Assembly (NCBI RefSeq): GCF_000237325.1
Contig: NC_017542.1
Coordinates: 4,666,001-4,730,000 of the forward strand
Direction: 5' to 3'
Length of the DNA stretch: 64,000 nucleotides
DNA from: Paenibacillus polymyxa M1
GTDB lineage: Bacteria > Bacillota > Bacilli > Paenibacillales > Paenibacillaceae
The notes beneath the pieces are model-generated. The model ran no database searches. It saw only the letters and a list, made by a program, of their open reading frames with translations, and was not told the DNA's origin. Position numbers and translations under genes: made by a program. Position 1 is the first letter of the stretch. Every line of letters starts with the position of its first letter. Below, piece after piece: positions 127 through 62,868 of this stretch.

Positions 127-150
127 CCCCGAAGCTGCTAGGCTTCGGGG
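127..150 (-). terminator. hairpin terminator after the arginine-rich gene
   Basis: A perfect 9-bp stem (CCCCGAAGC / GCTTCGGGG) with a 6-base loop lies 30 bases past the stop of the 180-539 gene. On the minus strand it is followed by TTATTT, only a moderate U tract. It most likely ends the nine-gene minus-strand operon. The remaining bases 1-126 hold no gene I can assign. Confidence 0.6.
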
Positions 151-179: not shown

Positions 180-539
180 TTACTGTGCCTTGTAAGCGAC
201 CTGGTGGCCATCTTCATAACCTTTGGCAAAGCCTGAATTGAAACCCTCATTGTAAGCAGCATCATATCCCTGCTGGAATGCCTGCGGGTCATGCTCTAAT
301 GCAACAGGAATGGGCTGTGGGTTCTCCGCAGAAGGAGCTGCGGCCGGGTTAGCTTGAGGTTTTTTCCGTCGCCGCAGAAGAGAACGTCTTCTACGTACTG
401 AATTAAGCCCCCTTTTACGGCGTCTAAGAGCAAGCAGACGTCTTCTTCTCCGTTTTAATCTACGAATGCTAGAACGCCGGGCATCTTTACGTCTTTTGCG
501 GGCTTTGTCTCGAGCTGTGCGTTCCCACCTTGTACTCAT
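180..539 (-). CDS. arginine-rich small protein with C-terminal GxxxG repeats
   Basis: This 119-residue protein is not a family I recognise. Residues 1-60 are extraordinarily basic (about 33 Arg/Lys of 60, with runs such as KRRRRRLLALRRRKR). Residues 61-88 form a Pro/Ala linker. Residues 91-112 carry glycine every four residues followed by aromatics (GFNSGFAKGYEDG). The start is the second of two ATGs after AAAGGAGG (7-base spacing). It is the last gene of the minus-strand glycosyltransferase cluster and overlaps the preceding gene by 53 bases in another frame. The basic part could bind nucleic acid or polyanionic spore material. The glycine repeat resembles the N-terminal segment of the 1605-3068 glycosyltransferase. 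Function is unknown; a spore-associated role is inferred from neighbours only. Confidence 0.75.
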   Translation of the reverse strand: MSTRWERTARDKARKRRKDARRSSIRRLKRRRRRLLALRRRKRGLNSVRRRRSLLRRRKKPQANPAAAPSAENPQPIPVALEHDPQAFQQGYDAAYNEGFNSGFAKGYEDGHQVAYKAQ

Positions 540-837
540 TTTCATTCCTCCTTTGTTTTCTCGTCTTGGTTTCATTTTTTTGAACAGGCACATGGAGCCA
601 TGGCTTCGTTGGTTTCCCATATACCTGTCTTCTTAAAGGAATACCCGCCAACATTTTCGTGATTTCTCCCTGGTAGTTGCTGAGTATACGGATGGTCTCT
701 TCCAGACGGGGAGCCGACATATCCGCATGGGGCGTCAAGTCCGCAAGACTGGTCAGCATCCGGGCAACGGCGTGCTGGCTGGCAGCAATAGACTCCATCA
801 TATCCAGCTTAATCTCACGTTCACGCCTCATGCTCAT
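487..837 (-). CDS. small helical protein, glycosyltransferase cluster
   Basis: This 116-residue protein is of unknown function. The first ~65 residues are predicted helical, with a segment ILSNYQGEITKMLAG resembling the C-terminal helices of the two genes before it. The last ~50 residues are polar, basic and probably disordered. Its ATG overlaps the stop of the preceding gene by one base (TAATG), which implies translational coupling. Its 3' end runs 53 bases into the arginine-rich gene. The three consecutive small proteins look like divergent members of one helical family, so they may form a hetero-oligomer. A shorter true C-terminus cannot be excluded. Confidence 0.6.
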   Translation of the reverse strand: MSMRREREIKLDMMESIAASQHAVARMLTSLADLTPHADMSAPRLEETIRILSNYQGEITKMLAGIPLRRQVYGKPTKPWLHVPVQKNETKTRKQRRNENEYKVGTHSSRQSPQKT

Positions 838-1169
838 TAGTTCATATCCCCCGAGCCCATGCCTCCCATCATCCCTTCCATTCCGCCACCCTGCTGCTCA
901 TCCTGGTCCAGCAATGCTTTGAGATTACTGCATAGTCCAGTCTGAAGCCGGGTTAATCCCTCCAGCATTTCCACCATCTGCTCGTGAATTTCCAAAGGCC
1001 GTCCCAACTGCTCTTCATCGGTGTCAAATGCGTGAGGCGCCAGATGGTTCAGCGTCCAATTGCGCATTTTTTCTGCTTCGACCGCCTTGGCCTCCAGAAT
1101 CATAGACACATTCCGCTGCATCTTGGAGGCTGCGTCCAGCATGTGAATCATTGCTTTTTCCCTACTCAT
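837..1169 (-). CDS. small helical protein with Met/Gly-rich tail
   Basis: This 110-residue protein has no recognised family. It reads as two amphipathic helices (about residues 5-45 and 60-90) separated by a loop, followed by a glycine/methionine tail (GGGMEGMMGGMGSGDM). The first helix contains MLDAASKMQRNVSMILEAKA and the second contains LEGLTRLQTGLCSNLKALL, in the same places as similar helices in its two neighbours. The start ATG follows a strong GGGGAGGGAG ribosome site. It sits 29 bases after the 1199-1486 gene and is coupled to the next gene by a TAATG overlap. The Met-rich tail could be flexible or metal-contacting, but nothing proves that. Confidence 0.7.
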   Translation of the reverse strand: MSREKAMIHMLDAASKMQRNVSMILEAKAVEAEKMRNWTLNHLAPHAFDTDEEQLGRPLEIHEQMVEMLEGLTRLQTGLCSNLKALLDQDEQQGGGMEGMMGGMGSGDMN

Positions 1170-1198
1170 GTGTTCACTCCCTCCCCTCGATTGTTACA

Positions 1199-1486
1199 CT
1201 ACTCCTCTTCCGGGTATGCCGTCTCCTTCACGACACGAACGAGCATTTCAGCCATTGCTTCCTGAAGGTCGGCAATACCGTTCAAATAGGCAACAATGCT
1301 TTTGTTTACTTGTCCCGAGCTATCAATAATGCCCGGAATTCCATCAAAACGCGGCTCCTCATCCGGCAGTTCATGTATGATCTGTGCCATGCGCACGACC
1401 ACCTGCCGTTCCGCATCCAGCAGCCTCGACATCTGCTGCTGCGAGTGCGAAATATGGATCAGCAAATCATCTAACTCGTTATGCAT
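1199..1486 (-). CDS. small helical protein, first of three similar genes
   Basis: This 95-residue acidic protein has no recognised domain. A long N-terminal helix (LLIHISHSQQQMSRLLDAERQ) is followed by a loop with DGIPGIIDSSGQVN and a second helix (YLNGIADLQEAMAEMLVRV). This helix-loop-helix plan repeats in the two genes downstream. The ATG is preceded by AAAGGAGGGG at good spacing. The gene lies 118 bases after the large glycosyltransferase in the same operon, and a GC-rich hairpin stands in that gap. It is likely a structural or scaffold protein of the cluster; this is inference from size and context. Confidence 0.7.
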   Translation of the reverse strand: MHNELDDLLIHISHSQQQMSRLLDAERQVVVRMAQIIHELPDEEPRFDGIPGIIDSSGQVNKSIVAYLNGIADLQEAMAEMLVRVVKETAYPEEE

Positions 1487-1503
1487 AAGCCCCTCCTTTA
1501 TGT

Positions 1504-1520
1504 GTTCCGCCGTGCGGAAC
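1504..1520 (-). repeat. perfect 7-bp inverted repeat before the small-protein trio
   Basis: GTTCCGC-CGT-GCGGAAC forms a tight hairpin in the gap between the 1605-3068 gene and the ATG at 1486. It ends about 10 bases before the ribosome binding site. There is no U tract, so it is not a classical terminator. It could protect or process the downstream message, giving the small genes different expression from the glycosyltransferases. Confidence 0.5.
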
Positions 1521-1604
1521 GCACGAAATACCTACGGGCTTTCCGCTACTACAGCGTATGCCGCAGCGAGTAGTCGGTTCCGCCTAAAAAAGCCTATTCG
1601 ATCA

Positions 1605-3068
1605 TCACAAATGTCCTTGTAGCACTGGTGGAGCAATAATAGGTTGCTTCTCCGTCAATGCCGACAATTCTTCGGAGGACAAAAACTGAATTGGATAGTC
1701 CTCAGCCCGCCAGCTCATCACAGCGTAGAGGGTCAGAAACGGTCTTTTCCAACCGTTGCCGATTTGGTACAGTTGCCCACCTTCAGCATACAGTAACTCG
1801 ATCCATCGCTTGCGTTGAGCCGGGATATGAAGTGTGGGCAACATGGACATGTTTCCCAGCTCAGGAGCCGCCAGCACAGGCAAGGGTTCCTCATGCGCCA
1901 CAGCTACAGGGGGGGCATCAGCGGCGCCGGACACCATCGCCTCCGGCTCATCTGCTAAGGGAAGCGCCAATAAATCAAGCTGAGACACTCTAACGGGATG
2001 CACGTATTTACCTCCCGCAGCACTGGCTTCATGCAGCAGCCGCCTACTTCCCGGCTCTATCCGAAATACTGCGCCGGACGGTCCCTGAACAAGCGCTCCG
2101 ACGGGATAAAAGCTTGCTGCTGATAAGTGTGCTTCCTTACTTGATAATCCTTGGCCGTCTGGCTCTGCTGTTCCAAATTCCGGGTGGTGGAACAGCTTAT
2201 CCGCGTCCCCCCACTTTTGGACAAAAAAGGATCGGTTCCGGCTTCCTTCCTCCGTTGAACCGATTCTTTCGGTCGTTTGAGGAAAACCATAAACCGTATC
2301 CCGATCACTTTCTACAAAATGGATAAACGCATCTCCGGCAATTGTCATACGTATCCCCAACAAGCGTACGCGCAGCAACCAATCTGCATGGGCTTCCTCA
2401 ATACTGTGGCACCCTTCATCCCAGTATCCCGTCTTTACCAAAGTTTCTCTACGTAGTAGTAGACAAAATGCGGCCAGGCTTTCAGTCTCTCGCCATGCAT
2501 CCGGGTTGGGAATATTATGGGCCATGGCAAATGGACGCACTTCATTTTTATTCATATCAGGAACCTCAACCTGCTGTTCTCCGAATGGACCATTCGTTAC
2601 AGGACCGACAACTCCCATACGCGAATCGCTGTATAAACAGCTCATCAACCGGTCCAGCCAGCCAGGAGTCACCATCGAGTTTGGGTCCAGTACGACAATA
2701 GTTGTACCTTTTGCCATCATCAGTCCCTGATTCAAACTGCCGATCATCTGAACATCCTTTGTTAACAGCGCATAGCGTACAGCGATGCTTTTACGGAGCA
2801 AATAGGTAGGTGTCCCGTCCGTCGAGCCGCAGTCTACCACAATAATTTCGTGAGGATGGCTCGTATTCTCCTCAATATGGTGAATGCAAGCACGGAGCTG
2901 TTGAAGCTGATTACAGGACGGAATGATAATACTTACGCCTTCAAAAATCTTGCCGAACGAAGCCTGCCCCAACTTCCTGCCTTGTTCCTGGCCCCTGTTA
3001 TATCCTGACCAATAGCCCTTCTTTCCGAGCCGTTTGCTGTGTTTCCTTTGCGTACTCAGGCGTTTCAT
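1605..3068 (-). CDS. family-2 glycosyltransferase with tandem C-terminal repeats
   Basis: This 487-residue protein is larger than a usual GT2 enzyme. Residues 1-44 are basic and contain glycines spaced four apart (GYWSGYNRGQEQGRKLG). Residues 45-250 are a GT-A fold: nucleotide-binding VSIIIPSCN, VVDCGSTDGT, and a weakened metal motif LDPN near residues 128-130. After a linker come two segments with the same plan. Residues ~321-372 have VFRIEPGSRRLL and later VSQLDLLALP. Residues ~426-476 have LYQIGNGWKRPF and later LSSEELSALTE. Both resemble a ~45-residue I-x-x-G-x-x-R repeat seen in surface-associated proteins. The start is the ATG placed after GGAGGAG. It presumably transfers sugars in the cytoplasm; substrate unknown. 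Confidence 0.85.
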   Translation of the reverse strand: MKRLSTQRKHSKRLGKKGYWSGYNRGQEQGRKLGQASFGKIFEGVSIIIPSCNQLQQLRACIHHIEENTSHPHEIIVVDCGSTDGTPTYLLRKSIAVRYALLTKDVQMIGSLNQGLMMAKGTTIVVLDPNSMVTPGWLDRLMSCLYSDSRMGVVGPVTNGPFGEQQVEVPDMNKNEVRPFAMAHNIPNPDAWRETESLAAFCLLLRRETLVKTGYWDEGCHSIEEAHADWLLRVRLLGIRMTIAGDAFIHFVESDRDTVYGFPQTTERIGSTEEGSRNRSFFVQKWGDADKLFHHPEFGTAEPDGQGLSSKEAHLSAASFYPVGALVQGPSGAVFRIEPGSRRLLHEASAAGGKYVHPVRVSQLDLLALPLADEPEAMVSGAADAPPVAVAHEEPLPVLAAPELGNMSMLPTLHIPAQRKRWIELLYAEGGQLYQIGNGWKRPFLTLYAVMSWRAEDYPIQFLSSEELSALTEKQPIIAPPVLQGHL

Positions 3069-3140
3069 GCCGTTCACTCCTCCGGGTGGCATTATGCCTA
3101 TACTATATGCCTGGCCCGGCTGAATGGTGTTTCAGTGAAA

Positions 3141-3872
3141 TCAAGGTAGAAGTCCCTTCATTTTCACTCCAGCTTCCTGAAGGGAATCGAAGGTTCCTGC
3201 GTCGCTCCAGTAGCGCCGTAAAATATCGTATTCCAGCTTGCCTTCAGCAGCATAACAGTTGTTAACATCGGTGATCTCAAGCTCACCACGTGCCGAAGGC
3301 GCTATTTCCCGGATCTTATCAAATACGGCAGTATCGTACATATAGATACCCGTAACGCAATATTTGGACTGGGGATGCTGCGGCTTTTCTTCAATCCGCG
3401 TAATACTCTCCGGGCGCTCGGGATCAAACACGGGCACCCCGTAACGACGGGCATCTGCCACCTTTTTCAGCAAGACCCTGGCGCTCCCCGGTGGCTGTTG
3501 TTTGAAGCGTTCGATGACAGGTCCCAAGTCTTCCTTGAACAAATTATCACCTAGCAAAACAGTGAACTTCTCTTCTGACTGCATGTAGCTTCTTGCCAAT
3601 TCGAGTGCTTCCGCAATGCCGCCCGCTTTTTCTTGAATTCGGTATGTCAATTGGACACCATAATTACTGCCGCTGCCTAAAAAATCAGTGTACAGTCCGG
3701 CCGATTGTTTACCAATAATAATGAGCATATCGGTAATCCCCGCTTGCCGTAGCCTTTCGATACCATATACGATCATGGGATACTTGCCGACTGGAAGCAG
3801 ATGCTTGTTGAGTAATGTAGTCAACGGATGAAGACGCGACCCGGTTCCTCCTGCGAGAATAATCCCTTTCAT
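3141..3872 (-). CDS. glucose-1-phosphate thymidylyltransferase-like nucleotidyltransferase
   Basis: This 243-residue protein matches the short form of the RmlA/NTP-transferase family, which couples a sugar-1-phosphate to a nucleoside triphosphate to make an activated sugar donor. The N-terminus has the signature loop KGIILAGGTGSRLHPLT. Further motifs are KHLLPVGKYPMI, the metal-binding LLGDNLF and IEEKPQHPQSKYCVTGIY. It is about 45 residues shorter than full RmlA and lacks the C-terminal dimer extension. Its ATG overlaps the stop of the upstream glycosyltransferase by four bases (ATGA). It probably feeds the neighbouring glycosyltransferases, although no rmlBCD genes are in the window. Confidence 0.88.
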   Translation of the reverse strand: MKGIILAGGTGSRLHPLTTLLNKHLLPVGKYPMIVYGIERLRQAGITDMLIIIGKQSAGLYTDFLGSGSNYGVQLTYRIQEKAGGIAEALELARSYMQSEEKFTVLLGDNLFKEDLGPVIERFKQQPPGSARVLLKKVADARRYGVPVFDPERPESITRIEEKPQHPQSKYCVTGIYMYDTAVFDKIREIAPSARGELEITDVNNCYAAEGKLEYDILRRYWSDAGTFDSLQEAGVKMKGLLP

Positions 3873-4669
3873 ATCTTCCTTCCTCCTTCGACAGCATGTT
3901 CAGTGCATGGGATCGCAGCGTTCCCAGTTTCAATGAACATTCTGGGATCTATGCTCCATTTTTCTATAAATAATCGATAGTTCCGCTCGATCAGCTCTTC
4001 GAGCCAAGAAGTTTCCGAGCGCGAGAAACTCGCATTTCCCTGGTGATAGACAAAACAGTCGTTGCACATGAGCAGCTTATAGCCATGTACGCGTGCACGC
4101 AGACAATAATCGTCATCCTCATAATGTCCGGGGCTGAATCGTTCATCCAACCATCCAATCCGTTCCAGCAGCTCACGCCGGAACAACAGACAAAACCCGA
4201 CTAGCCGCTTGACCTCTTGCCATCTGGAGGGATTGCTTACATTATTCTGCTCCGCATATCTCAGACAGCTGGCGAAATCTCCTTCTATTCCATGAATCTG
4301 CTGAATACCGCTGATGTAATTCGTCACCGGTCCCACCAGTCCCACTGTGCTTTCACTGTGCAAAGCAGCCAACATATTCGATAGCCATCCCCGTGTAACC
4401 GTCACATCATTGTTTAAAATGACGAATTGATCGCCCGAAGCCAGACGGAGCCCCATATTACAAGCTGCCGGAAAGCCCCTGTTTTCAGGAAGACGTATGC
4501 TGATTAGCCGCTCGGATGCACAAAAATCATCCGTCCCGTCATTCGAAGCGTTGTCCACAACAATAATTTCATACGGTGCATCTATCGTATGTGTTCGAAT
4601 CGCCTCGATACACGGCTTTAATAAATGAAGGCCATTATAAGTCGGAATAATGATGCTCGTCAGACTCAT
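3869..4669 (-). CDS. family-2 glycosyltransferase (rhamnosyltransferase-like)
   Basis: This 266-residue protein is a compact GT2 enzyme. It begins directly with the nucleotide-binding strand (TSIIIPTYNGLHLL), followed by VVDNASNDGTDDF, ENRGFPAACNMGL, the metal-binding LNNDV and the late motif GHYEDDDYCLRARVHGYKL. The ENRG...N.G pattern is typical of rhamnosyl and related deoxysugar transferases, which fits the adjacent nucleotidyltransferase. No membrane segment is visible, so it is cytoplasmic. It overlaps both its neighbours by four bases (ATGA), so the block is translationally coupled. Confidence 0.88.
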   Translation of the reverse strand: MSLTSIIIPTYNGLHLLKPCIEAIRTHTIDAPYEIIVVDNASNDGTDDFCASERLISIRLPENRGFPAACNMGLRLASGDQFVILNNDVTVTRGWLSNMLAALHSESTVGLVGPVTNYISGIQQIHGIEGDFASCLRYAEQNNVSNPSRWQEVKRLVGFCLLFRRELLERIGWLDERFSPGHYEDDDYCLRARVHGYKLLMCNDCFVYHQGNASFSRSETSWLEELIERNYRLFIEKWSIDPRMFIETGNAAIPCTEHAVEGGRKI

Positions 4670-5601
4670 CGTGCATTCCTCCCTTTGGCAACGTCTACCC
4701 GTGTTGGAACAGGCCCGAGCGGAGAATACCCGGCTACCTGAAACACTGTCGTCAGCGCCTCTGCATGATCGCCGATGATTAACTGCTCCATAGCGTTCCC
4801 TTTCCCGACATTGAAGGTCCGCTTGCGATTTGTTTTAATCACATCGACAGCATGTACTGCTGCCACGATCATGCCATGCAGAATCGCCATCGCGTGGGCC
4901 TTCGGCGGTACCGCAAGCACAGCTGGCCCAAGTTGATTCAGCACACGTCGTGATAATGCATGCGGTACAGCGGTCAATGAGCTTGCTCCAAGATCCGACC
5001 TGCGCAGTACTCGGTTCAGAAACCCTTTGCACCGTGTTACGCTGTCCTGCTGGGTATAAGGAGGCAAATGTCTGCCCAGATCATTAAGCGCCACATCCGT
5101 TCCCTGATCGACCGCTTGAAGAAAAGGCAGCAAATCAGACGCTGGGATCGGCAAATCTCCGTCCACGAACAGCACAATATCAGCCTGCGTCAGACGTGCG
5201 CCTATCGCACGGCCAACATCATGCCCCAGGCGATCCGGTACGTCAACGAGAGTCGCACCAGGATGACGTTTGGCTACGGCGGAGCGCGTACCATCCGTAC
5301 AGCCGTTCAATACAACAATGATATCCGCAAGCGGAAGTTTCTCCAGCTCGCCCAGTACCCGGTCAATCGTAGCCTCCTCATTACAGACGCTGACCACGGC
5401 TGCTGCAGTCCCCTGCAATACTATATCACTGGGGGCTTCACGTTCCTCGGTCAGATTGACTTCGGGTATTTCTTGCGCCCGAGGGGTGGGTTTTCTCACC
5501 CGGCGGCTATGCATCGAAGCCGTCGTTTCTCGTTTTCGCTGTACACGTCTTAGCCCCCAGCCCGGGTCTTCACGCTTTCTTCTGCGATACGCTCTAGTCA
5601 C
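4666..5601 (-). CDS. family-2 glycosyltransferase with basic N-terminal tail
   Basis: This 311-residue protein has an Arg-rich N-terminal tail (~55 residues). A GT-A fold follows: AAVVSVCNEEATIDRVL, VVLNGCTDGT, LGHDVGRAIGA and the metal motif FVDGDLPIP. It shares LGHDVGR-IGA, DGD--IP, DLGASS and PHA-S motifs with the gene before it, so the two are duplicates. The start is GTG, forming a GTGA overlap with the stop of the upstream gene. DGD-type GT2 enzymes of this shape resemble polyprenyl-phosphate or glucosyl-3-phosphoglycerate-type transferases, but the acceptor is unknown. The basic tail could bind a phosphate-rich acceptor or the spore coat. Confidence 0.82.
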   Translation of the reverse strand: MTRAYRRRKREDPGWGLRRVQRKRETTASMHSRRVRKPTPRAQEIPEVNLTEEREAPSDIVLQGTAAAVVSVCNEEATIDRVLGELEKLPLADIIVVLNGCTDGTRSAVAKRHPGATLVDVPDRLGHDVGRAIGARLTQADIVLFVDGDLPIPASDLLPFLQAVDQGTDVALNDLGRHLPPYTQQDSVTRCKGFLNRVLRRSDLGASSLTAVPHALSRRVLNQLGPAVLAVPPKAHAMAILHGMIVAAVHAVDVIKTNRKRTFNVGKGNAMEQLIIGDHAEALTTVFQVAGYSPLGPVPTRVDVAKGRNAR

Positions 5602-6536
5602 GTTTTCACCTCATCTCTGATCCGTTTGCGCTCCAAATCCGTATATCCCGCACGTGCTCCCAGACGTGATGTAAGCCAGGCAATGGCATCCAGGTGATCC
5701 TGGACAATTACACCTGCCAGCGGGTCCTTGCCGTTCTGTTTTTTACGTGTTGCGTTCATTCTACCGACAGCTATTCCATGTACAGTCACCACTCGCAACC
5801 CGGAGACGATGGACATCACTTGAAATAGCGGAGGTTTTTCCAAGGACTTTAGACCTATTTCCTTTAAAGCCTTTTGACTTATGGCATGTGGAATACCAGT
5901 CATAGAGGCTCCCCCTAAATCAGCACGATTCGACAAGATATTCAATACATGCTTTGCCTCAACTACAGGATGTATGGGCGTGCGATTCACAGGTCCATGG
6001 TAATCATTCAGCACCACATCCGCTCCTGCACATACGGCCTGTATAAATGGCCGAAGTCTGACGCAGGGAATGACGATATCACCATCCAGAAAAAGCAGGA
6101 TCTGTCCGGATGCTGCCTCCGCTCCAATACGACGGCCAACATCATGTCCGAGCGGTTCCGGGAAGGAAAGTACACGAGCCCCCGCCGCCGCAGCTACCTT
6201 CGCCGTTCTATCGTGTGATCCATTCTCAACAACGATAACCTCTGTTTGTGGATGGACATGGCGCGCTTCGCGAATCACAGCTCCGATTGTTCTTTGCTCA
6301 TTCATGGCCGGAATAATGACAGATACGAGAACCTTTCCCACTGATGGCGGTTCAGATGGCCGCGCTCCGCCGATCTGTGTCCCTCTCTCCGTATCGAGAA
6401 CCTCGCTCTTATCAGGGGTTATCGGCTTCTTATCCATGTTCGGCATTCGGAATGGCAGCCACATCTTAGAATGATAGTAAGCCCTGGAATGCCTCCTCCG
6501 ATTGATCTTGAATCCAGCTCTTCCACGCTTTTTCAT
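5598..6536 (-). CDS. family-2 glycosyltransferase, first gene of the cluster
   Basis: This 312-residue protein is a paralogue of its downstream neighbour. A basic, low-complexity N-terminus (KKRGRAGFKINRRRHSR) of ~70 residues precedes the GT-A core: VSVIIPAMNEQRTIG, VVENGSHDRT, LGHDVGRRIGA, the metal motif FLDGDIVIP, and RADLGGASMTGIPHAIS. No transmembrane helix is evident. The ATG at 6536 has a G-rich but distant ribosome site. It heads the minus-strand operon, with a candidate sporulation promoter about 60 bases upstream. Enzymatic class is well supported; donor and acceptor are not known. Confidence 0.85.
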   Translation of the reverse strand: MKKRGRAGFKINRRRHSRAYYHSKMWLPFRMPNMDKKPITPDKSEVLDTERGTQIGGARPSEPPSVGKVLVSVIIPAMNEQRTIGAVIREARHVHPQTEVIVVENGSHDRTAKVAAAAGARVLSFPEPLGHDVGRRIGAEAASGQILLFLDGDIVIPCVRLRPFIQAVCAGADVVLNDYHGPVNRTPIHPVVEAKHVLNILSNRADLGGASMTGIPHAISQKALKEIGLKSLEKPPLFQVMSIVSGLRVVTVHGIAVGRMNATRKKQNGKDPLAGVIVQDHLDAIAWLTSRLGARAGYTDLERKRIRDEVKT

Positions 6537-8871
<2,335 letters not shown>

Positions 8872-11761: not shown

Positions 11762-12544
11762 CTATGATGTCCCCATCGCAATCCAGAGAATCCATCCCTC
11801 ACATATCTGACCCGGTTGTCTGCGTTCCACTGTAAGCACTGCCGAATGCCTCTGTCGTTGTGTGACGGACACTATCACTCCCGGTACGCTCGCATTGGCG
11901 GTGATTGCATATTGCGTGTCTATAAAAGGCTTATCAAACACAACGTTCACTTTGCTTGTAACTTCTTGTGCAGAAAGATAAAAAGAAGTGCTGCCAAATT
12001 GAGGTAAAGTCACTTCACTGTCAGTAGTCCCGTCATCGGTCACTGAGCCAACATGAATGGCATTCCGACCTAATTCTTTTTCAGTCTGAGAAACTAGATG
12101 GGTATCTTGCTCTGGCAAGCGCATTCGCTGCTTTGAACGCTGTCTTCCTTCCGCAATATGAATACTGGTTATAGAGCAATCCAATAACGAGTCTTGCTCG
12201 GTCTGACCTTCCGTCTTCATAGACGCCATGTCGTGATCCGTTCCGTATTCGGTATCTGAGTCAGGCACAGACAGCAGCAGCACAGATGCTCGATTCATCT
12301 GCATCGCTTCCTCCAGCGTTTTGGGAAGCTTATGCTTTTTCCATGCTGCTTCCTCTATAGCTTGCACCGGGGTATCCTTCTCTACGGGAACAGGTACCTT
12401 TGCCGTTCCACGCTGAGTGGGTCTGGGACTGCCAGCAGGCGAAGCCGTTTTTTCCTTGTTTACACGGGGAGAGGGGACTGTATTGGAAAGGTTACGCCGT
12501 GCTATTTTTTTATCCTTAGGGCTATGGTTCGTGCGATGGTTCAT
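11762..12544 (-). CDS. unknown protein with disordered body and beta-rich C-terminal domain
   Basis: This 260-residue protein is of uncertain family. Residues 1-75 are basic and Pro/Thr/Lys-rich. Residues 75-175 are polar and low in structure. The last ~85 residues look like a beta-sandwich (FYLSAQEVTSKVNVVFDKPF ... GWILWIAMG), recalling WIAG-tail or H-type-lectin-like domains that end in a WIA motif; this is recall, not a search result. The start is the ATG with AAAGGAG upstream; the longer upstream frame lacks a ribosome site. It lies beside CotSA-like and YheC/D genes, so a spore-surface, possibly sugar-binding, role is a reasonable guess. Confidence 0.65.
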   Translation of the reverse strand: MNHRTNHSPKDKKIARRNLSNTVPSPRVNKEKTASPAGSPRPTQRGTAKVPVPVEKDTPVQAIEEAAWKKHKLPKTLEEAMQMNRASVLLLSVPDSDTEYGTDHDMASMKTEGQTEQDSLLDCSITSIHIAEGRQRSKQRMRLPEQDTHLVSQTEKELGRNAIHVGSVTDDGTTDSEVTLPQFGSTSFYLSAQEVTSKVNVVFDKPFIDTQYAITANASVPGVIVSVTQRQRHSAVLTVERRQPGQICEGWILWIAMGTS

Positions 12545-12658
12545 GATGACCGCTCCTTTGACACAGGAGTGAACCAGCGGTCGCTCCGCTTCATTCACCC
12601 AGGTGGGAATCATGGCCTAATGCCTATGAGATAGCCTATGCACGTAACCGCGACCACG

Positions 12659-13822
12659 TCACTCAGTTGCGCAGTCTGTTATAAATTGAGCCCAGCGTTG
12701 GGCGGAGTGCTGCCATAAAAATCGCCTCCGTACCTCGTCCAGCCCGGCTTCTCCCATTTGTCGCCGTAAGTCGTGCTGCTGGAGCAACCTGGTGATGGCG
12801 TCGGCCATTTCCTGCTCGCCGCGTGACGGATAAACAAGCCAGCCTGTCTTGCCGTGTTGTATAACCTCCGGAATACCACCGATTCGTGATGCTACCACAG
12901 GTACTCCTGCCGCCATGGCTTCCAGATTGACCAGCCCGAAGGCTTCAGCTTCAATAGAAGGAACAACGGCTACATCGGCTAACTGATATAACGAGGCCAA
13001 TGCCGGATGCGGCACATAGCCGAGGAAGTGCACATGCCTCGCCAACCTTAGTTTACGGATCTGCCGATGCAATGCTGCGGTGTACGGCGTGAGGCGGTCG
13101 TGACCGTAATAGGCACTCCCTGCTATGAGCAGCAGCACGTCTGGACAGGTATGGGCGATACGCCGCAGAGCCTTTAGCAGCCGATGAACTCCCTTTCCTG
13201 GCATCAGTCTGCCTGCATATAACACGATTCGGCGGCCTGACCAGCCGAAATCGTCCAATCGTGCCGACCTGATCGCTTCTGCTGCAGGAGTCCACCGTGG
13301 CAGGAAATCGCCAGGATGAATACCCAACTTGTTGATGACGATGCGTTCTCTGACCGCATCGGGACTGTCAGAGGCCACGATTGCCCCCAAATACGCACTG
13401 TTCACAATAATACGATCCATCGACAACAGCAGCCTACCCATGTCCTTCCGTTTGAGGTGAGGCTCCCGGATGAACGTGGTGGAATGCAAAGTCAGCACAA
13501 TTTTGCTATCGGGCAAAGCCTCGCGAATGGCATACGCAACTGTGGGGCGATTGTGTACATCTATTACCGCAGGTAACCATCTCTTCAAATCAGCGATTAC
13601 CTCGGGAATATAACCTGCCCCCCGCGTATAGCGCATACAAGGAATTCCGTCAACATCGCCGTGATCCGGTGTTTCTGCTCCTCTTATGCCATAGATCTGT
13701 GCCTGAAGCTTATGGCTAGCCAGCGGTACCATACGAGCAATTACCCGCTCCACTGAACTGCTGCGGGGCGAAGGTATAACAAAAGATCCCGGTGTAATGA
13801 CTGCTACCTTCAGCCTCTGCAT
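12659..13822 (-). CDS. family-4 glycosyltransferase, CotSA-like
   Basis: This 387-residue GT-B fold glycosyltransferase has an N-terminal acceptor domain (KVAVITPGSFVIPSPRSSSV). Its C-terminal donor domain carries VLYAGRLMPGKGVHRLLKAL, the E-x7-E site in PSIEAEAFGLVNLEAMAAG, and GIPEVIQHGKTGWLVYP. In Bacilli the closest functional parallel is CotSA, a coat-associated glycosyltransferase, and length agrees. An ATG overlapping the AGGTGAGGTG ribosome region was chosen; GTG one codon earlier is an alternative. It is divergent from the YheC/D gene and 114 bases upstream of the 12544 gene on the same strand. The sugar and acceptor are unknown. Confidence 0.85.
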   Translation of the reverse strand: MQRLKVAVITPGSFVIPSPRSSSVERVIARMVPLASHKLQAQIYGIRGAETPDHGDVDGIPCMRYTRGAGYIPEVIADLKRWLPAVIDVHNRPTVAYAIREALPDSKIVLTLHSTTFIREPHLKRKDMGRLLLSMDRIIVNSAYLGAIVASDSPDAVRERIVINKLGIHPGDFLPRWTPAAEAIRSARLDDFGWSGRRIVLYAGRLMPGKGVHRLLKALRRIAHTCPDVLLLIAGSAYYGHDRLTPYTAALHRQIRKLRLARHVHFLGYVPHPALASLYQLADVAVVPSIEAEAFGLVNLEAMAAGVPVVASRIGGIPEVIQHGKTGWLVYPSRGEQEMADAITRLLQQHDLRRQMGEAGLDEVRRRFLWQHSAQRWAQFITDCATE

Positions 13823-14028
13823 CACCTCACCTACTTTCCTTACCTTATTCCCTCACCCTTCAACACTCATCTTGTATCATATCGTTTCTTGCTCTGAAAG
13901 GTGCTTGGCTTATTACTTTGGGCATATCGCAAGGCTAGCGTCCATGCCTGGCCGACCTTTGATACATATGATGGACTAGAATCACAATATGGTCAGTTGG
14001 ATTGACGATAAGGAGGGCGGACATACTC

Positions 14029-15156
14029 ATGTTGCATGTCGGCGTCATGCTCAACCCGGCAACTTACCGGGGCATTCCCGTCATGAGGACGCGTTATGAA
14101 TCTATCGCCAATTACGAGGAGGCCGGGTTAAGCTACGAGCTAATCCCCTGCTTTCTTCGTCTAGAAGATATTCATATATCGACCGGAACATGCCGGGCTT
14201 TTGTTAAAAACGGCAACGAGTATCGGCAGATGACTCTTCCGTTGCCGCCAGTCATCCACAATCGGACTCTCTATCGGCAAAATGAAAATGCCCGCGATAT
14301 CAACAGGCTGGTACACAAGGGATTCTATATTTTTAATGAACAAAACCGTTTCGGCAAAGACCATATACATGCAATTCTACAGGAAGATCCTCTGCTACAT
14401 CCCCACCTTCCCAAAACATTGCAAGGCAACCTGTCTTCCATCCGTACCTTGATGGAGCAAACCGGGGATGTTGTAATTAAACCCAGTAGCAGTAGCATAG
14501 GTAGAGGAATTATGCGGTTGAGGCATTCCAGCGGAAGCTGGACATTGCAATGTGCTCATCCAACGATATCTGAACGTTGGTCCACCCTACGGTTGAAGGT
14601 CGGGGAACTCCCTTTATTTCTGCACAAGCGACTGATGCATGTTCCTCATATCGTTCAGGAAACCATTCCGCTTGCTTTGTGCGACAGTCGTCCATTTGAT
14701 ATCCGTGTGACCGTTCAGCGCGGGTATGGCGGAATCTGGGGGGTGACAGGCATGTTTGCCAAAATTGCTCCATCCCACACTTTCGTCTCGAATGTAGCCC
14801 AAGGCGGTACGGCTTGTTCCCTACCAGAGGTGTTATCACGAACAGAGACAGTTCAAAACTCAAACATAGCCCGGCTGATGAATGAGCTAGAGAGACTCTC
14901 ATTGCAAATCGTCCACCGATTGGCACAACACCTGCCCCGTCTGGCCGATGTCGGACTGGATCTGGGAATTACCCATGAAGGCAAGATTGTTTTTATCGAA
15001 TGCAATGGTCGTGATCAGCGCTATGGCTTTAGCCAGGCAGGCATGAGTAATGTCTGGAAAGAAACGTACGCTCAGCCAATGGCTTACGCACGTTGGCTTC
15101 TCGAACGAATGTCTTCGTCAGGCACTGAACGTTCACCAGGCCGTCCCCTGTATTGA
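14029..15156 (+). CDS. YheC/YheD family endospore coat-associated ATP-grasp protein
   Basis: This 375-residue protein has an N-terminal fold (GVMLNPATYRGIPVMRTRYESI) followed by an ATP-grasp domain. The domain has VVIKPSSSSIGRGIMRL (phosphate-binding loop), DSRPFDIRVTVQ and the metal-binding end FIECNGRDQRYGF. YheC/YheD proteins are spore-coat-associated in Bacillus; the ligase reaction is not defined. The ATG lies after AAGGAGGG with a slightly long spacer (~12 bases). It is divergent from the CotSA-like gene and 88 bases before psd. A second, shorter family member is at 54683-55339. Confidence 0.87.
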   Translation: MLHVGVMLNPATYRGIPVMRTRYESIANYEEAGLSYELIPCFLRLEDIHISTGTCRAFVKNGNEYRQMTLPLPPVIHNRTLYRQNENARDINRLVHKGFYIFNEQNRFGKDHIHAILQEDPLLHPHLPKTLQGNLSSIRTLMEQTGDVVIKPSSSSIGRGIMRLRHSSGSWTLQCAHPTISERWSTLRLKVGELPLFLHKRLMHVPHIVQETIPLALCDSRPFDIRVTVQRGYGGIWGVTGMFAKIAPSHTFVSNVAQGGTACSLPEVLSRTETVQNSNIARLMNELERLSLQIVHRLAQHLPRLADVGLDLGITHEGKIVFIECNGRDQRYGFSQAGMSNVWKETYAQPMAYARWLLERMSSSGTERSPGRPLY

Positions 15157-54682: not shown

Positions 54683-55339
54683 TTATTGAGGTCTTGTGTT
54701 TACCTCTAAAATCCATATCCGTCCATTCCAATCAAGCCCGTAATCAAATCCCAGTTGTCCGATCCCGGGAAATCTCCTTTCGAGTATAGGAATACAGTGC
54801 TGTGTAAGTTCAACGATCTCCCGCCGCTTTCGTATAGCTAGCCGTCGCGGATATATCATCCGAAGTGCCTCGGTTCCCTTCAACAAAGTTCCTCCTTTGC
54901 ACAAATTCGTTATGACCAGTCCGGGGCGAGCATGACGCGCCACCACTGCACGAAACTCCCATTTTCCCCCTTCCTTTACGACTTTGACTCGATAGTCAAC
55001 AGGTCTACCTTGGATACTTGCTAGTTGAATACCTTGCTGAATGAGATACGGACGTTGGATTCGGAGCTTATCGATTCCGACTACAAGCGCACTAAAATGG
55101 CTGAACCGATGTGTTTGTTCCATACGCGTACAGGTATAGCCCCTCCCCTCCTTTGCCACGCGCATGACTCCGCCCCCTCCGCCTCCTTTTACGGGTTTTA
55201 TAAATACAAAAGCATGCCGCCGCAGCATCATGCGCAATTGTTCTTCACTATATAGACAGGTTTCCGGTATATAAACGGCGGTATGTGGATGATGGAGGAG
55301 GGCCTTCGTCTTTAGCCATTTGCTTGCAAGTTGTCTCAT
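54683..55339 (-). CDS. short YheC/YheD-family ATP-grasp protein
   Basis: This 218-residue ATP-grasp protein belongs to the spore-coat-associated YheC/D family but is much shorter than the 375-residue paralogue at 14029. It keeps the phosphate-binding loop FIKPVKGGGGGGVMRV, the substrate segment PVDYRVKVVKEGGKWEFRAV and the metal site WILEVNTRPQ, where it ends abruptly. The N-terminal domain of the long form is missing. GAAAGGAGAG precedes the ATG, so it looks like a real short form rather than a broken gene. Substrate unknown. Confidence 0.85.
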   Translation of the reverse strand: MRQLASKWLKTKALLHHPHTAVYIPETCLYSEEQLRMMLRRHAFVFIKPVKGGGGGGVMRVAKEGRGYTCTRMEQTHRFSHFSALVVGIDKLRIQRPYLIQQGIQLASIQGRPVDYRVKVVKEGGKWEFRAVVARHARPGLVITNLCKGGTLLKGTEALRMIYPRRLAIRKRREIVELTQHCIPILERRFPGIGQLGFDYGLDWNGRIWILEVNTRPQ

Positions 55340-62541: not shown

Positions 62542-62868
62542 CTAATAATGCTCATTATAACCTTCTCTCAGACCTTCTACAAAACCTTGCGCGAAAAAAA
62601 TCATAAAAATCAACAGGCCAATGCCAATGGCGACGGAGCTGATGACGATAATCAGGATGCCCTGCGTGTTTCTTTGTTCCATCTTTCTAGTCAAAATTCC
62701 GAAAACAAGGCCGATAAGCCCAAGTAAGCCTCCAATGACAAAAAAACTAAATACGAACCCCAAACCTGAAAAAATCCAGCCAAATAGAGCGAGCACCCAG
62801 CCTTGCGGCTGCGGCTCACTCTGTTTCATCTGCCAGCGTTCCCTCGCTGTAGGTGTGTATCTGTCCAT
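62542..62868 (-). CDS. small membrane protein, DUF4190-like
   Basis: This 108-residue protein has two predicted transmembrane helices (~24-56 and ~68-92) after a polar N-terminus (RYTPTARERWQMKQSEPQPQ). The G-rich first helix (GLGFVFSFFVIGGLLGLIGLVFG, split) and conserved length resemble DUF4190-type proteins of Gram-positives, but I cannot confirm the family. GGGGGAGC precedes the ATG. It lies 69 bases after the 62938-63552 gene in the same direction. Confidence 0.65.
   Translation of the reverse strand: MDRYTPTARERWQMKQSEPQPQGWVLALFGWIFSGLGFVFSFFVIGGLLGLIGLVFGILTRKMEQRNTQGILIIVISSVAIGIGLLIFMIFFAQGFVEGLREGYNEHY

Follow-up and report, generated by a model that had tools for sequence, protein, structure and literature searches.

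A conserved glycosyltransferase locus of Paenibacillus polymyxa and its relatives with a shared GX3 glycine repeat and a possible role in spore-surface glycosylation

The DNA analyzed here, a window of 64,000 nucleotides from Paenibacillus polymyxa M1, carries at positions 180-6536 a block of nine open reading frames (ORFs), all on the minus strand and read in the order GT9, GT8, GT7, NT6, GT5, H4, H3, H2, RCP. We regard it as an evenly balanced proposition that this block encodes a mother-cell machine for a spore glycan, held together by helices with a glycine repeat of spacing four (GX3) around an Arg-rich hub, the protein RCP. An earlier sequence-only reading of this DNA had described four glycosyltransferases of family GT2, one nucleotidyltransferase, three small proteins and one Arg-rich protein encoded in one direction, and all of these were found. 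Its term 'nine-gene cluster' is right for the genes but not for the extent, which was set by the window edge: the block is cut there, and the same strand continues to the left of RCP with two genes for CgeB-like proteins, CgeB2 and then CgeB1. The Arg-rich protein, which had been named a partner of the enzymes, is present but is more than a partner, as its C-terminal GX3 repeat is common to several enzymes. The nine genes are:

5598-6536, minus strand: GT9, GT2 glycosyltransferase with a basic N-terminal tail (ORF and Pfam)
4666-5601, minus strand: GT8, GT2 glycosyltransferase with a basic N-terminal tail, homologue of GT9 (ORF and Pfam)
3869-4669, minus strand: GT7, GT2 glycosyltransferase (ORF and Pfam)
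3141-3872, minus strand: NT6, RmlA-like nucleotidyltransferase (ORF, Pfam and PDB match)
1605-3068, minus strand: GT5, GT2 glycosyltransferase, predicted N-terminal GX3 helix at residues 18-34 (start 3068; Pfam, alignment and structure model)
1199-1486, minus strand: H4, small acidic helical protein, homologue of H3
837-1169, minus strand: H3, small acidic protein, predicted two-helix hairpin
487-837, minus strand: H2, small basic helical protein, weakly similar to H4 and H3
180-539, minus strand: RCP, Arg-rich protein whose C-terminus carries a GX3 repeat; 119 aa if read from the better start

In the proposed mechanism, the block would form the central part of a group of genes of sigma-K type, expressed in the mother cell, whose products make a glycan and attach it to the outer spore layers of Paenibacillus. 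GT9, GT8, GT7 and GT5 would add sugars in turn, together with CgeB-like and GT4 enzymes encoded downstream, and activated sugars would be supplied by NT6 along with downstream WecB-, dehydratase- and RmlD-like enzymes. RCP would serve as the hub, its C-terminal GX3 helix pairing with the N-terminal GX3 helices of GT5, CgeB1 and CgeB2 and, in relatives, of a GT-D-like enzyme, and the Arg/Lys-rich stretches of RCP, GT8, GT9 and GT4 would bind an acidic surface, which may be H3/H4, the coat or the growing polysaccharide. We infer the docking, the role of H2, H3 and H4, the acceptor, the sugar and the spore location from what was found by computation, namely conservation of the genes, modules with invariant glycines, natural fusions, promoter-like sites and absence from a genus that lacks SpoIVA. 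Little is known of the outer layers of Paenibacillus spores, and the locus provides a concrete conserved gene set for a putative spore glycan.

The GX3 module of RCP and of several enzymes

A protein was counted as carrying the GX3 module when it contained at least three glycines at spacing 4, at least two of them followed by F, Y or W (G-[FYW]-x-x-G). Module stretches are found at the end of RCP (GYDAAYNEGFNSGFAKGYEDG), at the start of GT5 (GYWSGYNRGQEQGRKLG), in CgeB1 (GIHDGYDEGYLRG) and, in a weaker form, in CgeB2 (YRCGYREGRRMG). The module was counted over 76 loci of up to 20 kb each, which were taken from H3-positive genomes and chosen for spread, with ORFs labeled by similarity; this set is uninformative on the frequency of H3, and some of its loci come from close relatives. 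RCP-like proteins, defined by their Arg/Lys content and length, carried the module in 31 of 32 cases, CgeB1 in 30 of 34, CgeB2 in 15 of 35 and GT5 in 12 of 19, and among unlabeled neighbors the count was 5 of 838; none of the 218 H2, H3 and H4 proteins had it. Proteins labeled GT-D had it in 6/19 cases, but one of these six, L102, is a short Arg-rich protein of 106 aa, which leaves 5/18 for the enzymes. At the control spacings 3, 5, 6 and 7 there were no matches in RCP-like proteins, CgeB1 and CgeB2 and a handful in the rest, and shuffling gave a mean of 0.75 matches in all unlabeled proteins together and 0.05 or less in the module carriers. The repeat is thus common to enzymes of three families and one non-enzyme, and the GT-D-like enzyme (PF22882) of relatives can bear both the Arg-rich and the GX3 part. 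RCP was counted by locus instead of by homologue search, which from one RCP relative returned only two proteins. The RCPs of L034, L035, L126 and L127 were kept with priority, having earlier been labeled via similarity to a GT-D protein, probably over the same modules, and among the proteins labeled GT5 there are one fragment (L034) and a small number that are not orthologues (L037, L117).

In GT5, the four GX3 glycines were invariant in 16/16 proteins while the rest of the N-terminal tail varies, and in CgeB1, G35, G39, Y40 and G43 were invariant in 22/22 proteins, with most of the surrounding tail varying. Among the 120 listed of 656 relatives of CgeB1 in a large protein database, 117 had the module, and none of the 120 matched at spacings 3, 5, 6 or 7. 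In a list of ORFs that still contained overlapping ones, a glycine repeat was seen by eye in 33 of 39 distinct short Arg-rich tails. The AlphaFold2 (AF2) model of GT5 places the GX3 stretch inside one helix, residues 5-37.

RCP and GX3 enzymes also tend to occur together. Over the 76 loci, whose members are not independent where they are relatives, 33 had both a GX3 RCP and a GX3 enzyme, 30 had neither, 8 had the RCP only and 5 an enzyme only; at least L084 and L100 were scored as lacking an RCP despite a listed RCP-like ORF. In addition, natural fusions of enzymes were found in relatives, namely GT9-GT8 (L040, 6704-8344) and CgeB2-CgeB1 (L088, 14893-17184). By analogy with known GX3 contacts, RCP is likely to be a hub that docks the GX3 enzymes, and the co-occurrence and the fusions are signs in favor of this. 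More specifically, it is somewhat short of an even chance, in our estimate, that spores are decorated by an assembled complex in which RCP is the common dock for GT2, CgeB-like and GT-D-like enzymes, which would make the repeat a bacterial modular deca-GX3 contact. The module would then give a simple rule for gathering glycosyltransferases of different families into one machine, and possibly a tag for directing enzymes to spores.

Alternatively, the GX3 helices and Arg-rich tails may be independent signals for targeting to, or embedding in, the coat, with RCP a structural coat protein and the enzymes undocked, each protein reaching the spore surface separately. Such targeting would agree with the Arg/Lys-rich stretches on GT8 (28/49), GT9 (16/50) and the glycosyltransferase labeled GT4R (24/26), which mostly come without GX3 and show that the two modules are separable, and with the 8 of 76 loci that have a GX3 RCP and no GX3 enzyme in the stretch taken. 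However, glycines invariant at exact spacing 4 suggest a defined helix contact, and neither the co-occurrence of RCP with GX3 enzymes nor the existence of fused enzyme pairs is what undocked enzymes would lead one to expect. We therefore consider this explanation unlikely, although it deserves more weight than those discussed below.

Several observations weigh against docking as the organizing principle of the locus, an idea which draws on sequence and on analogy. The module is near-absent from GT7 (1/74), GT9 (0/50) and NT6 (0/36), rare in GT8 (3/49) and partial in CgeB2, where the protein of the window genome is itself not among the 15 of 35 that pass the criterion; docking can therefore not cover every enzyme. 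Several loci of one family (f6) have the order GT9-GT8-GT7-H4-H3-H2 and lack a GX3 protein within the 20 kb examined. By eye, a glycine repeat was missing from six of the 39 distinct short Arg-rich ORFs in the list with overlaps. AF2 was of low to moderate confidence along the GT5 helix (blocks 44, 60, 78, 67), and at the DNA level the pattern had 28 matches genome-wide, as many as the reversed control (28).

Counted in frame, in reading frames of at least 100 codons, the genome has GX3 cases in 13 proteins, three of which (RCP, GT5 and CgeB1) lie within about 5 kb; one of the 13 we take to be FliH-like. Separately, a small membrane-like protein at 62542-62868 (minus strand) has a short C-terminal glycine repeat that is probably unrelated to the GX3 module.

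Conservation of the locus and its link to sporulation

H3 was present in 31 of 39 relatives and, by profile, in 97 of 119 genomes and 25 of 33 genera of the order; across the phylum it was found in 4 of 299 genomes, all in its own family. Four loci (L096, L099, L111, L135) lost H3 to the overlap filter and were excluded from the synteny counts, leaving 72 scored loci. Within 8 kb of H3 and on the same strand, H4 was found in 72/72 and H2 in 66/72 of these, at least one glycosyltransferase of the set in 62/72, and GT9, GT8 and GT7 together near H3 in 39/72. The gene order is kept over several families of the order, the fullest example (L047) being YheC/D (divergent), CotSA-like, GT9, GT8, GT7, NT6, H4, H3, H2, RCP, CgeB2, CgeB1, GT4. 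The sequence-only reading had set in advance that a lack of conservation of the small genes with the glycosyltransferases would speak against it; H4-H3-H2 stay with such enzymes across many genera. The same reading had called the combination unfamiliar. This agrees with the open-licence literature, in which, by titles and starts of abstracts, neither the cluster nor GX3 repeats on spore glycosyltransferases were found described, many subscription papers lying outside that search; but the genes of the combination form a locus conserved throughout the order.

The distribution of the genes points to sporulation. SpoIVA (PF09547) was found in 113 of 119 genomes of the order, and the six without it are all the sampled genomes of one genus of the family to which P. 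polymyxa belongs. H3 occurred in 0/6 of these genomes and in 97/113 of the SpoIVA-positive ones; the 44 other genomes of the same family in the set have both H3 and SpoIVA. Full-length CgeB1 and GT8 are missing from these six genomes too; CgeB1 gave a single weak match covering 96 positions, and GT8 a single match at E 1e-4. Four points count against reading this as a firm link: the SpoIVA-less genomes form one clade and hence one event, H3 is missing from 16/69 SpoIVA-positive genomes outside the family, one genome of the window's own genus (92% complete) is without H3, and the sporulators G123 and G125 carry H3 but neither CgeB1 nor GT8.

The sigma-K consensus consists of AC, 16-17 bases and then CATANNNTA. 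Upstream of GT9, where a sigma-K-like -10 had been noted before, CATAGGTTA is indeed present at 6598-6606, 61 bases before the GT9 ATG, with AC at 6624-6625 (spacer 17) or 6622-6623 (spacer 15). Two promoter-like sites are recorded in the window:

6598-6625, minus strand: sigma-K-like promoter site upstream of GT9 (consensus scan)
1552-1578, minus strand: sigma-K-like consensus with one mismatch, upstream of H4 (sequence)

Over the loci, AC-N16/17-CATANNNTA was found upstream of H4 in 12/41 cases, of GT9 in 5/32 and of other genes in 8/342 (Fisher against other genes, 3e-8 for H4 and 0.003 for GT9). Of the distinct H4 upstream regions, 14/63 matched, compared with a mean of 0.3 and a maximum of 3 in 200 shuffles and none for the reversed pattern. 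The window's own H4 upstream region has the one-mismatch near match (at 1552-1560), and full matches occur in relatives. The five GT9 matches are confined to two groups of close relatives, which lessens their weight.

A spore-related role is thus suggested by the enrichment of sigma-K-like promoters, by the finding that none of the six SpoIVA-less genomes, the only ones among the 119, has H3, and by the name 'spore maturation protein CgeB', which together with 'CgeB family protein' occurs among the NCBI names of CgeB1 relatives. Mother-cell expression, as proposed earlier, is partly supported by the enriched promoter-like sequences and by the SpoIVA-less genus, which has neither H3 nor GT8 nor full-length CgeB1. 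The nearby CotSA-like and YheC/D genes, which had been taken as a further hint, were both found, 6-7 kb from GT9, but the CotSA-like protein is only a GT4 enzyme by Pfam. This generic profile would also suit the idea that the product of the block is a vegetative exopolysaccharide, a capsule or an S-layer glycan and that the spore-gene neighborhood is accidental; GT2, GT4, WecB and dehydratase genes serve vegetative polysaccharides as well. We consider this very improbable in view of the enriched sigma-K-like sites, the genes missing from the SpoIVA-less genus and the CgeB names, and also since no flippase or polymerase family was found among the cluster proteins given to Pfam, although not every neighboring ORF was scanned.

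Gene calls, enzymes and small helical proteins

Beyond the nine genes and promoter-like sites, the following features were recorded:

127-150, minus strand: terminator-like hairpin after RCP (read from the sequence by eye, no terminator scan)
12659-13825, minus strand: GT4 glycosyltransferase, CotSA-like (Pfam: GT4 only)
14002-15156, plus strand: YheC/D-like ATP-grasp protein

GT9 shares 4 bases with GT8, as do GT8 with GT7 and GT7 with NT6, and H3 and H2 share a single base. The four overlapping pairs of the sequence-only reading therefore exist, but they are not consecutive, as three stand in a row and H3/H2 stands apart. Ribosome-binding sites argue for two revised starts: RCP more likely starts at 539 than at the listed 620, as it is preceded there by AAAGGAGG, which gives a protein of 119 aa with 26 R and 9 K and a 53-base overlap of H2 and RCP, and GT5 more likely starts at 3068 than at the start in the ORF list. 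The hairpin lies between RCP and the CgeB-like genes and, judged from its sequence, may be the end of a first transcript. Further left on the same strand follow a GT4 with an Arg/Lys-rich tail, a WecB-type epimerase, a PseB/FnlA-like dehydratase, an RmlD-like reductase, an epimerase-like protein and a GT2. On the other side, between GT9 and the CotSA-like and YheC/D genes, lies what is presumably a neutral-protease-like gene (7093-8871, plus strand), along with further genes; the distance of 6-7 kb is a feature of the window lineage, and several relatives have the CotSA-like gene immediately upstream of GT9. A protein ending in a WIAG-tail domain (NF012201) is encoded at 11762-12613 (minus strand), and a number of relatives have a WIAG-tail-like protein ('Wiam') upstream of GT9. 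Far from the cluster, at 54683-55339 (minus strand), another YheC/D-like ATP-grasp protein is encoded.

All four glycosyltransferases of the block belong to GT2, scoring 63.8 (GT5), 97.1 (GT7), 46.8 (GT8) and 69.9 (GT9) bits against PF00535 (gathering cut-off 23.3). The AF2 model of GT5 has a glycosyltransferase fold whose best matches are polypeptide GalNAc-transferases and WrtF, at a template modeling (TM) score (query length) of about 0.4, and these matches were not used to assign an acceptor. NT6 reached 194.1 bits for NTP_transferase (Pfam cut-off 21.2), and its best PDB match is 3hl3, a glucose-1-phosphate thymidylyltransferase; as an RfbA equivalog (TIGR01207) it stays below the NCBIfam cut-off, with 223.7 versus 360.65 bits. 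The CgeB-like genes pass the Pfam cut-offs for Glyco_trans_1_2 and DUF3880 (in L034, 11739-12881 for CgeB1 and 12906-13997 for CgeB2). The WecB-type enzyme is over its cut-off (259 versus 210.15), and the PseB/FnlA-like and RmlD-like enzymes are below those of their families. The activated sugar is perhaps a 6-deoxy-HexNAc.

H2, H3, H4 and RCP reached no Pfam cut-off. PF26595 is the precomputed Pfam label on the 120 H3 relatives listed, but was not reported for H3 itself by direct Pfam search. The AF2 model of H3 is a two-helix hairpin (predicted local distance difference test, pLDDT, 77.7), for which a Foldseek search of the PDB gave no match at E <= 0.001. The homology of H3 and H4 is convincing (95.8%), whereas that of H2 to the two is weak (30.0% and 66.5%). 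Many H3 relatives bear the NCBI name 'restriction endonuclease subunit S', a name at odds with a predicted helical hairpin of about 110 aa of PF26595; it looks like a propagated misannotation. In a plasmid collection, H3 had no match. With a mean net charge of about -8, H3 and H4 could be the acidic partner of the basic tails.

It has also to be considered that RCP or the H proteins are glycan acceptors, that is, spore glycoproteins which the enzymes recognize as substrates. The genes of the small proteins lie amid those of the enzymes, and in the loci examined, which were chosen for H3, no genes are more constant than H3, H4 and H2. Crust loci of Bacillus subtilis such as cgeAB-cgeCDE likewise mix coat proteins with glycosyltransferases. 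CotH phosphorylates Arg/Ser-rich coat proteins in B. subtilis, but no CotH (PF08757) match was found in the P. polymyxa genome, the B. subtilis control being positive; phosphorylation of RCP by CotH was rejected, and a CotG-like substrate role is weakened. A substrate role would further leave the presence of GX3 on both RCP and the enzymes unexplained, and by eye H3 and H4 have no obvious Ser/Thr-rich stretch. The effect of B. subtilis crust loci such as cgeAB-cgeCDE on the crust and its saccharide layer (PMC7439481) fits an acceptor role. On balance we regard such a role as improbable and prefer the machine assembled around RCP.

Comparison with known systems

A GX3 repeat is known from the eukaryotic Yae1-Lto1 complex, in which the two proteins need deca-GX3 motifs to form the complex and do so less well when the glycines are changed (PMC4523923). 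RCP and the enzymes resemble Yae1-Lto1 in their run of glycines at a strict spacing of 4, but the proteins and the pathway are different and the runs are shorter, with 3 to 6 glycines. Membership in Yae1_N was rejected, RCP (16 bits) and the GT-D protein of L042 (21.2 bits) being below the cut-off of 27.5. In bacteria, FliH bears a GX3 motif (PMC4523923), and RCP has a weak score against FliH models, but FliH is a flagellar assembly protein, and the 146-aa form of RCP, at 24 bits against an NCBIfam equivalog cut-off of 180, was rejected as a FliH.

One study reports that, of the B. subtilis cot genes, it was able to identify only cotE in P. polymyxa (PMC11278568). In B. subtilis, the spore-crust loci sps, yfnHGFED, ytdA-ytcABC and cgeAB-cgeCDE have been linked to spore-surface glycans (PMC7439481). 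The P. polymyxa locus is like these in its relationship to CgeB, judged by the database names of CgeB1 relatives, and in having a sugar nucleotidyltransferase; it is unlike them in RCP, in H2, H3 and H4 and in GX3 on enzymes, for which B. subtilis CgeB was not compared. Genes for spore-surface glycosylation are already known from B. subtilis (PMC7439481), and the putative docking module would be the new element.

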